64,000 nucleotides of DNA. Source: Phanerochaete sordida (Eukaryota; Basidiomycota; Agaricomycetes; Polyporales; Phanerochaetaceae). Within the stretch, counting starts at the first letter, position 1. Each line of letters begins with the position of its first letter. The translations under genes were made by a program, and so were the position numbers. Positions 5,103 through 20,550 of the stretch are shown here, piece after piece. Location: NCBI GenBank assembly GCA_019973155.2, contig BPQB01000042.1, positions 222,522-286,521 on the forward strand. Direction: 5' to 3'. The notes beneath the pieces were generated by a model. That model did no database searches, had not been told where the DNA came from, and worked only from the letters and a program-made list of their open reading frames with translations.

Positions 5103-6795
5103 ATGTCTGCCGCCCTCGGCTCCCTCCTACAAAGGCTCGCCCGCCTCGCGTCCCTTCCGTCCAGAACCCCTCGAACTAGAACCACTACACTCGCGTTTCT
5201 TCCCATGGCCTCTGCACTTGGACTCCTCGCGACGAACGTGTCCGTCTCGGAGATCCTGCCCGACTCGCAGGAGAAGGCGGACGTGCGCCCCGCGCACCAC
5301 GCAAACGATGCAAAGACCAAGTTTGCAAACCCCTGGCCGTCGTTCCGGTGCGTGCCCCATGCTTGCTTTGCGTGCCGCGGCTGACCTCTCGCGCAGCGAA
5401 GTCCCGTCGTTCCGGTGGAGGGTAACTGTGCATTTTCTCGCGTGCCCCTTCGACGCTAAGCAGCATCTTCCAGATCGTCAAAGAAGCACGGGCACGGCAC
5501 CCAGAGGTTCCGAAGGACCTCGAAGCCCTCGTGCACCTGCAGAAACCGAACTGGGGCGCCGGCTCTCGCCCCGAGGCGATCAAAGCTACTTGGTTGGGGT
5601 GCGTGTGGCGCTCGCGTACCACGGACTGGGCTGATCATCGCGCCACAGGCACGCCTGCTACCTCGTAGAGTTCCCTTCGCCGGCCGAGGGCGTTCGAGGC
5701 CCCCGAGTGCTCTTCGACCCTGCGCTGTCGCATAGGTGTTCGCCGTTCACCTGGATGGGCCCCGCTCGGTTGACACGTGCGTCGCGTTCGCCTCTAGATG
5801 AGCCGTTTGCTGAATGGTGCCACAGCGGTACCATGTCCCATCGACGATATCCCTGCCGTCGACGCCATCGTTCTTTCGGTACGTAGTTGGTACCACTCGC
5901 CGGCCTCTCCGCTGACGCCTATCCTATCTGTAGCACAACCACTACGACCAGTACGCCACTTCCACTCTCTCCCTTGACCCCTCGCTAACACCACCCACAA
6001 TCCAGCACCGACAGCGCCACCCTGCAGAAGCTCTTCACAAAGTACAAACCCCAGATCTTCGCGCCGCTCGGCAACGGCTGCTACTTCCAGTCGCTCGGCA
6101 TCCCCGCCTCACACACACACATCCTCGACTGGTGGGACGCGCGCGCGCTCACGCTCACGCTCGCGCCCGCCCCTGACGCGCCCGGCGCCGCGACCGCGCT
6201 GCGCATCACCTGCACGCCCTGCCAGCACACCGCCGCGCGCGGCCCGTGGGACCGCGACCAGACGCTGTGGGCGTCGTGGGCCGTCGCGTCGGTGCCGCCC
6301 GCAGGGCAGGAGCCGCGCAGCGTGTGGTTCGCGGGCGACACGGGCTACCGCACGGTGTTCGCGGGCGAGGACGAGGCGGGCGTGCCCGTGTGCCCCGCCT
6401 TCCGCGAGATCGGCGCGCGCATGGGGCCCGTCGACCTCGCGCTGATTCCCATTGGGTGCGTGTTCGTTTTTGTTGAACGGGGGCGGGGCGGGGGCTGATG
6501 ATGGGGGCAGCGCGTACATGCCGCGCGACCTGTTCTCGAACGTGCACAGCTCGCCGGCAGACAGCGTGCGCATCTTCCGGGACGTGCGTGCGCGCAAGGC
6601 GCTCGCGATGCACTGGGGGTACGTGCTATTTCTTGTTCTTGCGGCGAAGCAAGGCTCACGGACGGCAGGACCTGGATCTTGACGACGGAGGACATCATGG
6701 AGCCGCCGAAGCTGCTTGCGAAGGAGGCCGCGGCGCTCGGCATCCCCGAGGGTGACTTCGACGTGTGCGGCCTTGGCGAGACGCGCTTCTTTTAG
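5103..6795 (+). CDS. NAPE-PLD-like metallo-beta-lactamase-fold phosphodiesterase
   Basis: The predicted 426-residue protein resembles N-acyl-phosphatidylethanolamine phospholipase D (fungal FMP30 group), a zinc hydrolase that releases N-acylethanolamines from membrane phospholipid. Exons are 5103-5347, 5397-5414, 5464-5598, 5649-5776, 5826-5878, 5934-5950, 6006-6455, 6511-6618 and 6669-6795, and the phases sum correctly. Family marks in order are a PWPSF stretch, WLGHAC, CPIDDIPAVDAIVLS, the metal motif HNHYDH, a GNG loop, CQHTAARG, AGDTGY, and a C-terminal HWGTW. The metal motif is split by introns: HNHYD lies on a 17-nt exon. The N-terminus from 5103 is rich in Arg, Ser and Leu and could target mitochondria, as for yeast Fmp30; an internal ATG at 5205 is the alternative start. 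The second exon (18 nt) is the least certain junction. It lies directly upstream of the hydrolase array on the same strand. Confidence 0.88.
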
Positions 6796-17286: not shown

Positions 17287-18488
17287 ATGGACGCCTCCCA
17301 CTACCGCACGCTCACCGTCTCGCGCGGCCTCGCCTACAACGTCTTCCACGCCCCGGCCGCGGCGGGCAAGCCGACGCTGCTCCTGCTGCACGGCTTCCCG
17401 GGCTCGTCGTACGACTGGCGGCGCACGGCGCCCTACCTCGCCGCACGCGGCCTCGGCGTCGTCGCGCCCGACATGCTCGGCGCGGGCGGCACCGCGCGCC
17501 CCGCCGACGCGCAGGCGTTCCGCCTCGCCGCGATCGCGCGCGACGTCGTCGACATCCTCGACGCGCTCGGCCTGGCGAAGGTCGTCGGCGTCGGACACGA
17601 CTGGTGCGTGGCGCCATGAGTCTGATGGGGAGGAATGCTGATGGGGCGCAGGGGCTGCGTCGCGCTGAGCTACCTCTCGCTGCTGCACCAGGCGCGCTTC
17701 GCGGGCTTCGTGTGGCTCGCGGTCGGCTTCCGCGAGCCCGCGACGGAGCCGTTCGATATCGAGCAGGCGATGGCGCAAGCTAAGGCGCTGCTCGGCTACG
17801 AGTGGTACGCGTACTGGCTCTTCCTCTCGCGCAGGGACGCCGGAGACGTCATCCAGGAGCACGTACGTCCCGCGCGAAGCTACTGGACGGAGGGCGAGGG
17901 CTGACACGCGCGGGCAGATTGATAGCTTCCTCCAGCTCACGTACGCCAAGGACCCCGCGACCTGGCCAGAGGTCCTCTTCCGACGTGGCAAAGCGGCGGA
18001 GCATATCGAGGGCGACGTCCTACTCGGACGCGCGGACTGGCTTCCCCAGGAGGTGAGAGGTCGAGACGGGCCAGATATCGTACAATTGCTTACATCGTGT
18101 CTTGCAGGAATACGACAAGGTCAAGCAAGAGATAATCACGCACGGCATGCACTCTCGCCTGCTCTGGTACACGAATGCAGTGGACAACAACGACCTGGAG
18201 GAGAACAAGAGTACGTCGCGCCGTCTTTTCCGAGAAATCCCCAGTCTTTAAATTTGAGACACCGCGACAGAGATCCAGAAGGAAGCGTACCCGATCAAGG
18301 TTCCCTCGCTCTTCGTCGGCGGGTCGAAGGACCCCCTCTTCGTTGAGGCCGTCTCGCTCGAGACGCTCAAGAAGTACGCGACGGACCTCAAGATCGAGAG
18401 CGTCGACGCGGGCCATTACATCCATCTCGAGCGCGCGGAGGAGGTGAATAAGGCCATTGAAGAATGGGTCGCGACCCTGTCGGTGTAG
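17287..18488 (+). CDS. Alpha/beta-hydrolase, epoxide-hydrolase type, tandem copy 6
   Basis: Predicted 327 residues from exons 17287-17603, 17652-17862, 17918-18052, 18108-18210 and 18271-18488. It pairs with copy 5 through the 211-nt exon 2, the elbow GHDWGC and the cap motif YEWYAYWLF. The triad is complete: Asp in GHDWGC, Asp in GSKD, His in AGHY. Exon 1 has the highest GC of the array and is close to saturated for C/G at third positions. It ends 140 bases before the stop of the convergent fatty-acid-synthase-like gene, so the two transcripts probably overlap at their 3' ends. Confidence 0.9.
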
Positions 18489-18628: not shown

Positions 18629-20550
18629 TTATGCGAAAGTCTCGCAGCTGTACTCGACGTTCCCCTCTCTGCTGAAGGTGACGATGTAGTCTAGAACGCC
18701 ACTTAGCATCAAACAAGGTGCCGAGCATGCATTGTGACTTACCCCCAAGCACACGCATGTTGAAGCCTGCCTCACAGTAGCAGCTAGGCACGTCCATGAG
18801 CGATCAACAGCAAAACACGGGGCGGTGCCGGAGAAACGCACAAGTAATACACCCACTTGCGCCGGAACATGGCGATCTCCTGCTGTCCGCCCTCCGTGTC
18901 GTTCATCACCTCAGGATACTTCTCCTTCAGCGCTACACGGCCGTGCTCAAGTCAGTGCGTGTCGAACTCTCGGTTCGAGGCCGATCGCACCATCTTCTAT
19001 GCTGCGGAAGCCCGCCTCGAAGCGGCGCCTCCATTCGCGCAAGGTGCGCGCATAGTGAGGGCCGATGTTCGTGACCGACTCGACGACGAGACGCGCCGCA
19101 GAGCCGGAGACTACCGCAGAAGTGAGCTGCGTCACGGTCGGAAGGACGCCGCCGGGGAAGACTGTATGCGTGTCAATTAGGGTTGCCTTAGTCGAATGGC
19201 GCGGAGCTTACTCTGCGACCGCCGTCAGTTACGAAAACAGGACCTGGAAGGCAGTGCGTACGTATTTGCGGATGAAGTCCTCGCCCTTGATGTACGCGTC
19301 GTAGCGCGCCTCCGGGATGGTGATGCTCTGCACGACGCCGACGCCCGTGTCCGGCTTGAGTGCCCAGTCTATCGTCTTGAAGTAGGGCTGCAGCAGTAAT
19401 GCTGGTGAGTGAAACCACCTCAGATAACGCCTTAAGCCTCAGCAGACGCACCTCGTACAAAGCGGGCCCGATTGCCTCCACCATCTCGACGCTGACGACG
19501 CGATCGAACACGCCCTCCCACGTCTGGGGCAAGACGCGGAAGTCCATGAGATGCACGCGTAGTCTGTCGCCGATGGCCATTTGACTCGAGTTGCCGTTCA
19601 TCTTCTCGACGCTCTTGCTGTCCTGCAGAAGGAGTTCCTGGATATACTCCGCTTGCTCAGTCGAGAGCGTGATGGTATCGACAGTGGTGTCCGGGATCGT
19701 CCGTACGATCTGCAGCGCCAGCGATCCCCAGCCGGAGCCGATCTCCAAGACCTGCACACCGACCAGTATGTGAGTATATGCGCATACACCTGCCAAATGG
19801 TAAGGGGACATACGCGGTGTCCCGGCTGGATGTCCGCCTTGCGTATGATATGCTGCAACTTGCGGATCTGGGCATCATGCAATGCGTCCGGCTCTGCGTC
19901 CGCGCCATCGAGCGCACCGACACCCATGCTAGGGCTCGACTCGCTCGACGCAACCTTAGCGTCCGCGTCGAGCGAAGGGAAGATTGCGCAGGAGTACGTC
20001 ATGTCGCGCGAGAGGAAGACCTTGAACATCGCGTTGCCGAGGTCGTAGTGCGCGCTGATGTTCCGGCGCGCCGTGCTCAGTGCGTCGCTGCTGGCGAGGC
20101 CCGCGAGCGCGCGCGCGGGGAGCGTGAGCAGCGCGATGGGCACGGAGAGCAGCGTGGCGAGCGGCGTGGGGAGCGACGGCAGCGGCTTGTCGCGGTTGAG
20201 GATGAAGATCTGCGTCGCGCGGTCAGCACCAGGGCGTCGTCAGGGCCACTCGCGTGTACCTCAAAGAACCGGACCATGTCTCGCCGCGACTTGAACGAGA
20301 CGTCGCCGCGCATGTACGCTTCGGCGAACACGAGGTCCGGGGACGCCGCCGGGGAGAGGAGCTTCAGGAAGAACGCGCGGTCGTAGACGGTGAGCTCTGC
20401 GTCTGGTTCGACATTCTCGGTCGACACGAGCGAGGTGGGGAAGCAGTGCGTACGCGTGCGCGTGTGGAGGGTAAGGCGGCCGCGGGTGATGGTTCGGGAG
20501 AGGTACCACGCAAAGGCGGCCTCGGCGGTGTCGTAGACGATGGCGGACAT
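18629..20550 (-). CDS. Cyclopropane-fatty-acid-synthase-like SAM methyltransferase
   Basis: Predicted 492 residues. Exons (read leftward) are 20260-20550, 19814-20209, 19452-19751, 19262-19387, 19212, 18991-19161, 18842-18932, 18743-18783 and 18629-18690; the sum is a whole number of codons. Enzymes of this family use S-adenosylmethionine to add a methylene or methyl group to double bonds of phospholipid acyl chains. Signs are YDLGNAMFK, SRDMTYSCAIF, the SAM-binding EIGSGWG, TLSTEQ, SVEMVEAIG, YIFPGG, and the C-terminal DYIVTFSREGNVEY. The YIFPGG motif needs a single-nucleotide exon at 19212 between two canonical introns of 49 and 50 bases. The rival is one 75-base intron (19187-19261), which replaces the Ile by nine residues. 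The gene converges on hydrolase copy 6. Predicted membrane-associated in the cytosol. Confidence 0.88.

Follow-up and report, generated by a model that had tools for sequence, protein, structure and literature searches.

Phanerochaete sordida belongs to the Phanerochaetaceae within the Polyporales, and the window analysed here is a stretch of 64,000 nt from its genome. Strain YK-624 is a white-rot fungus (PMC8530024). On the minus strand, at 20550-18629, lies a gene which by its sequence is a predicted cyclopropane-fatty-acyl-phospholipid synthase, CFS1-like, with methylene transfer to unsaturated acyl chains as the expected reaction. The spliced product scores 191.9 bits against the PF02353 profile (CMAS, mycolic acid cyclopropane synthetase), for which the curated cut-off is 27, and many relatives among the protein database matches listed are named cyclopropane-fatty-acyl-phospholipid synthase or CFS1-like. 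The label fatty-acid-synthase-like, given in the initial annotation, was therefore wrong.

Structure of the gene

The exons and introns of the gene model are collected in Table 1. The spliced model comprises 1479 nt with the stop, that is 492 amino acids and a stop codon, which reproduces the earlier sum of 493 codons. At the joint between exons 4 and 6 the minus strand reads AAATAC / GTACGC...GCAG / A / GTAAGC...ACAG / TCTTCCCC..., with a 49-nt intron A and a 50-nt intron B on the two sides of a single A. The coordinates of these introns agree with those first proposed, and both are of normal size, as the remaining six introns measure 50, 62, 64, 58, 58 and 52 nt.

Table 1. Features of the proposed gene model for the cyclopropane synthase gene
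Feature	Position	Strand	Basis
Exon 1 (ATG at 20550)	20260..20550	-	gene model
Intron 1, 50 nt	20210..20259	-	gene model, splice scoring
Exon 2	19814..20209	-	gene model
Intron 2, 62 nt	19752..19813	-	gene model, splice scoring
Exon 3	19452..19751	-	gene model
Intron 3, 64 nt (coding in public model PsYK624_109180)	19388..19451	-	gene model, splice scoring
Exon 4, end ...FIRKY (TAC)	19262..19387	-	gene model
Intron A, 49 nt, GTACGC...ACTGAC...GCAG, phase 0	19213..19261	-	gene model, splice scoring
Predicted branch A in the ACTGAC of intron A, 13 nt from the 3' splice site	19225	-	splice scoring
Probable single-nucleotide exon A, first base of Ile codon ATC	19212	-	model enumeration, motif, chance test
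Intron B, 50 nt, GTAAGC...ATTGAC...ACAG, phase 1	19162..19211	-	gene model, splice scoring
Predicted branch A in the ATTGAC of intron B, 12 nt from the 3' splice site	19173	-	splice scoring
Exon 6, start TC TTC CCC GGC GGC (..FPGG)	18991..19161	-	gene model
Intron 6, 58 nt	18933..18990	-	gene model, splice scoring
Exon 7	18842..18932	-	gene model
Intron 7, 58 nt	18784..18841	-	gene model, splice scoring
Exon 8	18743..18783	-	gene model
Intron 8, 52 nt	18691..18742	-	gene model, splice scoring
Exon 9 with stop codon	18629..18690	-	gene model

The closest protein match of the gene is its own public model, PsYK624_109180 of P. sordida. This model has 513 aa, retains intron 3 as coding and runs in the wrong frame up to LFPGG; the conserved segment YEPYFKTIDW...FIRKY is absent from it. 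Gene prediction for the P. sordida annotation used BRAKER2, followed by manual curation (PMC8530024). A convergent gene with several short introns occupies 17289-18488 on the plus strand; it looks alpha/beta-hydrolase-like by eye (LLHGFPGSSYDW), and about 140 bases separate its stop codon from the one of the synthase.

Reading frame and conserved motif at the joint

The 100 nt between exons 4 and 6 consist of a 49-nt GT..AG stretch, one A and a 50-nt GT..AG stretch. Removal of the full 100 nt shifts the frame and the protein stops at 380 aa, while keeping the A at 19212 restores K-Y-I-F-P-G-G and gives 492 residues; hence proper inclusion of this base is required for the enzyme. We enumerated splice models with GT or GC donors from 19300 to 19165 and with AG acceptors reaching no further than 42 nt into exon 6, allowing 40-140 nt for a single intron and 40-110 nt for each of a pair. 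This resulted in 54 models with an open frame, and the motif KY.FPGG was found only in the one with the single-A exon, which upholds the exon first suggested at 19212. The PF02353 score is also highest for this model (191.9 bits), as compared to 184.6 for a GC-AG intron, 178.2 for a 75-nt intron and 150.4 for the public model. The earlier claim was that every other donor is in the wrong phase. This holds for GT donors used as a single intron with the 19162 acceptor, but not for GC donors, since the enumeration gave open frames also for those at 19257 (Y-V-L-FPGG), 19269 and 19284.

To judge how strictly the motif is spaced we used prokaryotic loci as an intron-free yardstick, taking the best 80 of 573 confirmed stretches. 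Exactly one residue separates the aromatic residue or His from FPG in all 80, with Ile in 79 and Val in one. When sorted, 76 were plain, two were HYIFPGG split one residue early, and the last two, a false hit and a miss in the sorting, were settled singly as KHVFPGS and AYIFPGG. KYIFP[GN]G is likewise present in the three best of the 17 PDB matches listed, which are the three with alignments. A paralog in the same genome has KYMWPN at the joint within one open frame and no intron there. This paralog (C1:2075500-2079500) is distant, with 35-50% identity by segment, and probably has short introns elsewhere. A search of the P. sordida genome for contiguous motif DNA elsewhere gave no exact pattern match. 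DNA of fungal relatives was sought in prokaryote genome contigs and in viral contigs; the 80 loci obtained from the former are all prokaryotic, and none of a relative was found in the latter.

A single base is thus bounded by an AG acceptor on one side and a GT donor on the other (GCAG/A/GTAAGC), and both the frame and the conserved motif need it. Judged from the genomic sequence, it is very likely that the A at 19212 forms a complete exon of one nucleotide; this is the best reading of the joint, and the exon is probably real.

Strength of the splice sites and chance of the pattern

Donor, acceptor and branch-site models were trained on a set of 156 introns, which coding potential let us infer in 264 kb of the same genome with the synthase gene masked; the percentiles are rough because this set is self-built and small. 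Intron A has a total score of 22.8, in the 90th percentile, and intron B 13.6, in the 21st. Intron B is mediocre, with A at donor position -1 (10% of training donors) and T at acceptor position +1 (6%). The branch-like motifs CTGAC and TTGAC described earlier were located, one in each intron, and their branch A lies 13 nt (intron A) and 12 nt (intron B) from the 3' site, with a training median of 17; in both introns the acceptor is the first AG downstream of it. By predicted pairing with U1, donor A is weak (-0.7 kcal/mol) and donor B better (-5.3), the reverse of the order by position score.

How often such a split arises by chance was estimated from the genome, which contains 20,854 GT..AG stretches of 95-105 nt. 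Among these, 806 have an AG/N/GT with at least 45 nt on either side, and the middle base is A in 168. Both halves reach at least the score of intron B in five of the 20,854 with any middle base and in none with A. In 20,000 dinucleotide shuffles with the ends kept, an equal or better split appeared once with A and 17 times with any base. A lax scan of 264 kb for AG/N/GT double introns between coding-like flanks returned 26 models at 12 places including the target, and a stricter scan returned a single match elsewhere but not the target, as the downstream flank of the latter reached 3.85 where at least 4 was required. The places in the lax scan include candidates on the plus strand at 5421 and 63611; these were called from splice pattern and flanks only, and chance is possible for both. 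The AG/N/GT pattern alone is accordingly not unique, and it is the protein motif that makes the case for the predicted exon.

The joint in proteins of relatives

Further we compared the joint in 168 distinct proteins among the matches listed (best 120 per search), with some species repeated. They comprise 157 named gene models and 11 proteins from short contigs; P0001 is the public model of the gene itself. All 11 short-contig proteins (P0025, P0053, P0060, P0063, P0068, P0075, P0085, P0101, P0142, P0151 and P0155; 10 lgn and one jgi, contigs of 1.8-6.1 kb) read W-I-FPGG and are full-length single frames. From the short contigs, the full-length frames and the nearest named relatives we infer that they are transcript assemblies from Agaricomycetes.

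The gene models behave differently from these proteins. Their joint holds a single Ile in 16, a single Val in 30, two residues in 61 and a longer insert in 31, and it is unrecognised or missing in 19. Extra residues are thus found in 92 of the 157, and with every kind of disturbance counted the number rises to 111; the 46 models with a single residue and no visible problem count against a shared exon. The discrepancy is seen even among close sequences. P0025 has W-I, while the Ganoderma models 87-89% identical to it have L-I, LNFAV and one unrecognised joint, and P0037, at 84% identity, has W-V-I. Likewise P0060 has W-I, the Neolentinus model (82% identical) 21 residues and the Heliocybe model (81%) V. 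The P. carnosa protein, 73% identical to that of P. sordida, has 14 residues in its model where one is expected.

The extra residues themselves are informative. A gene finder unable to place a single base may shift the donor downstream by four bases, so that V (from GTN) appears, followed by a residue coded by N+TC. In the two-residue strings the first residue is V or A in 57 of 61 and the last is I, L, F or V in all 61; the seven A-I cases fit a donor starting GCAA. The V-X strings (L 26, I 17, F 5, V 2) are compatible with the fourth-base frequencies of donors in the P. sordida genome (C.51, A.24, T.13, G.12; chi-square p 0.16), unlike the near-invariant Ile. For the longer inserts, those starting with V continue with R, S, C or G in 12 of 13, as a donor GTNNGN would (p 6e-7), and those ending in V are preceded by a residue that fits translated CAG/TC or TAG/TC in 15 of 16 (p 1e-4), both p values being too small because related sequences were treated as independent. 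The two-residue strings therefore fit a missed one-nucleotide exon, and many of the extras look like translated intron ends. A real donor shift in those species would yield identical two-residue strings, and the 11 W-I proteins speak against it. Read as translated intron ends, the extras hint at a donor directly behind W and at an AG/TC acceptor in many relatives.

Two species allow a closer look. Two models of Hermanssonia centrifuga, 92% identical overall, have VCV...TNQ-I (P0051) and V-F (P0024); decoded from the protein, both fit one locus of the form W/GTNTGY...CAG/A/GT...AG/TC, whereas a simple intron ending CAG/ATC accounts for P0051 alone and not for P0024. In Agaricus bisporus, P0089 (V-I), P0094 (A-I) and P0135, with a 51-residue insert that starts A-S and contains KEYV, seemingly come from one locus. 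The code permits KEYV to be read from AAAGAGTAYGT, that is AG/A/GTAYGT, and the differences between the three models suggest a GT/GC donor difference between strains. For the 30 models with V we speculate that RNA-guided joints forced the A onto a splice-site G.

Alternative explanations

The joint might instead be closed by one GC-AG intron, 19257-19162, giving Y-V-L-FPGG, which we consider quite unlikely. It leaves an open frame, and V-I, V-L or V-F strings occur in 48 of the 157 gene models of relatives; V-X is found in none of the 11 short-contig proteins, although close gene models show it. The donor scored last of all, but the training admitted GT donors only and this place is therefore largely built in; with the T/C position omitted the ranks among 156 are 24 for the GC donor, 37 for donor B and 99 for donor A. 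The splice scores by themselves thus do not exclude a GC donor, and the motif does most of the work, since two residues stand where all 80 prokaryotic relatives (best 80 of 573) have one, and the PF02353 score drops to 184.6 from 191.9 bits. GC donors are rare and usually strong elsewhere, and GCACTG is not a strong one. The two-intron structure within the stretch is also left unexplained.

A sequencing error or a real frameshift (pseudogene), in which the intron would be a single one of 100 nt and the exon would lack a base, has a similarly slight chance. Removal of the 100 nt is out of frame by exactly one, and introns of at least 95 nt are not rare (9 of 90 in the stricter inferred set, 40 of 163 in the laxer). 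That the assembly was built from Illumina MiSeq reads only (PMC8530024) also counts toward an error. Against this, the remainder of the gene is intact, at the 73% identity to the P. carnosa protein given above, and the P. carnosa model is disturbed at the same joint. Neither error nor decay predicts the precise split of the 100 nt into two plausible introns.

A still smaller chance is given to the alternative named in the initial annotation, a single 75-nt intron (19261-19187) ending CTAAG, in which ATLIDTHTV replaces Ile. It was recovered as a GT-AG model with an open frame of 500 aa, and its total splice score of 18.3 (50th percentile) exceeds that of intron B. Its AAG acceptor is at the 7th percentile, and it must skip the nearer GCAG at 19213. 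The best branch A is 39 nt from the 3' site, a distance reached or exceeded in 11 of 90 introns of the stricter set (branch sought within the last 60 nt). Also against it are the eight extra residues where the 80 prokaryotic relatives (best 80 of 573) have only one, and the loss of PF02353 score from 191.9 to 178.2 bits.

In a stwintron one intron lies within a splice site of another, external one with no exonic base between, and nothing is kept in the mRNA; apart from the two introns adjoining with one base between them there is hardly anything to recommend this here, as the loss of all 100 nt breaks the frame and truncates the protein to 380 aa, and introns A and B each have their own donor, branch-like site and acceptor.

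Proposed splicing and age of the exon

In the model with the one-nucleotide exon, the Ile codon of (K)Y-I-FPGG would be split into A and TC by two ordinary short spliceosomal introns, each recognised singly. Such intron definition is probably usual for fungal introns of about 50 nt. Introns A and B are probably removed one after the other, because U1 on donor B and the 3'-splice-site factors on acceptor A would overlap over one base. As to the order, the position score favours donor A and predicted U1 pairing favours donor B. A role in regulation is possible though hypothetical: inclusion would be all-or-nothing, giving either the enzyme or an early stop, and could act as a switch of cyclopropane-lipid synthesis.

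Based on the protein models, we find it rather more plausible than not that the exon is common to many Agaricomycetes, and we lean equally toward an old exon of CFS1-like genes, dating from early Agaricomycetes and persisting in many lineages. The ancient form would have a donor right after the Trp or Tyr codon, a lone A and an AG/TC acceptor, and would account for the disturbed joint in as many as 111 of the 157 gene models. The oddity at this joint may therefore be old and usually mis-annotated in related mushrooms. If relatives share the exon, it offers a broadly conserved natural test of a fixed removal order for introns one base apart, exposes a systematic annotation failure in the cyclopropane synthase family, and yields predictions that can be tested directly and at low cost in many sequenced mushrooms. 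The family is linked to fruiting through cfs1 of Coprinopsis.

Comparison with known one-nucleotide exons

No exon that the spliceosome defines can be smaller than one nucleotide, so that such exons mark its lower limit. They had been called extremely rare in any organism; rare they are, but cases are already published, and the nuclear ones met in the titles, abstract beginnings and passages searched are plant APC11 and VPS55 and Fusarium CYP621A, with further cases in mitochondria. Within these same parts of the literature we found no basidiomycete nuclear one-nucleotide exon, and none was recognised in the cyclopropane synthase family. The P. sordida exon, if true, would as far as these searches show be the first in Basidiomycota.

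In the same genus, the passages on Phanerochaete chrysosporium P450 genes describe small introns (45-55 bp) and many short exons, the shortest reported being 6 bp as compared to 1 nt in P. sordida (PMC1184071). Single-base exons are described in mitochondria as well. In the fungal rnl-576/rnl-577 pair a single A lies between two introns as in the P. sordida gene; those are, by the passages seen, mitochondrial group II introns at rnl positions, while the P. sordida introns are spliceosomal (PMC12308204). Placozoan cox1 likewise has a one-base exon, again mitochondrial, according to the excerpted text (PMC5436844).

Closer are the plant genes. The one-nucleotide microexon of Arabidopsis APC11 was reported in 2015 and tested with GFP fusion constructs (PMC4674806), and a 2022 plant paper added VPS55 and conservation across land plants (PMC8831610). 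Going by the passages of these papers, both exons lie between two introns, are conserved in many species and were unannotated, much as proposed here; unlike here they are backed by RNA, and forms of VPS55 without the exon exist too (PMC4674806, PMC8831610).

The nearest parallel is CYP621A of Fusarium, published in 2026 and, in the excerpts of that report, self-described as the first one-nucleotide exon of a fungal gene, with 18 SRA reads; all but one of the public transcripts were wrong at the motif (PMC12940212). There too a base between AG and GT in a conserved motif of a fungal nuclear gene is needed for the phase. As excerpted, that gene encodes an ascomycete P450, its single base takes the middle position in a Gly codon and the reads are shown (PMC12940212), whereas the P. 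sordida exon belongs to Basidiomycota and to another gene, is predicted from genomic sequence and would supply the A that opens an Ile codon.
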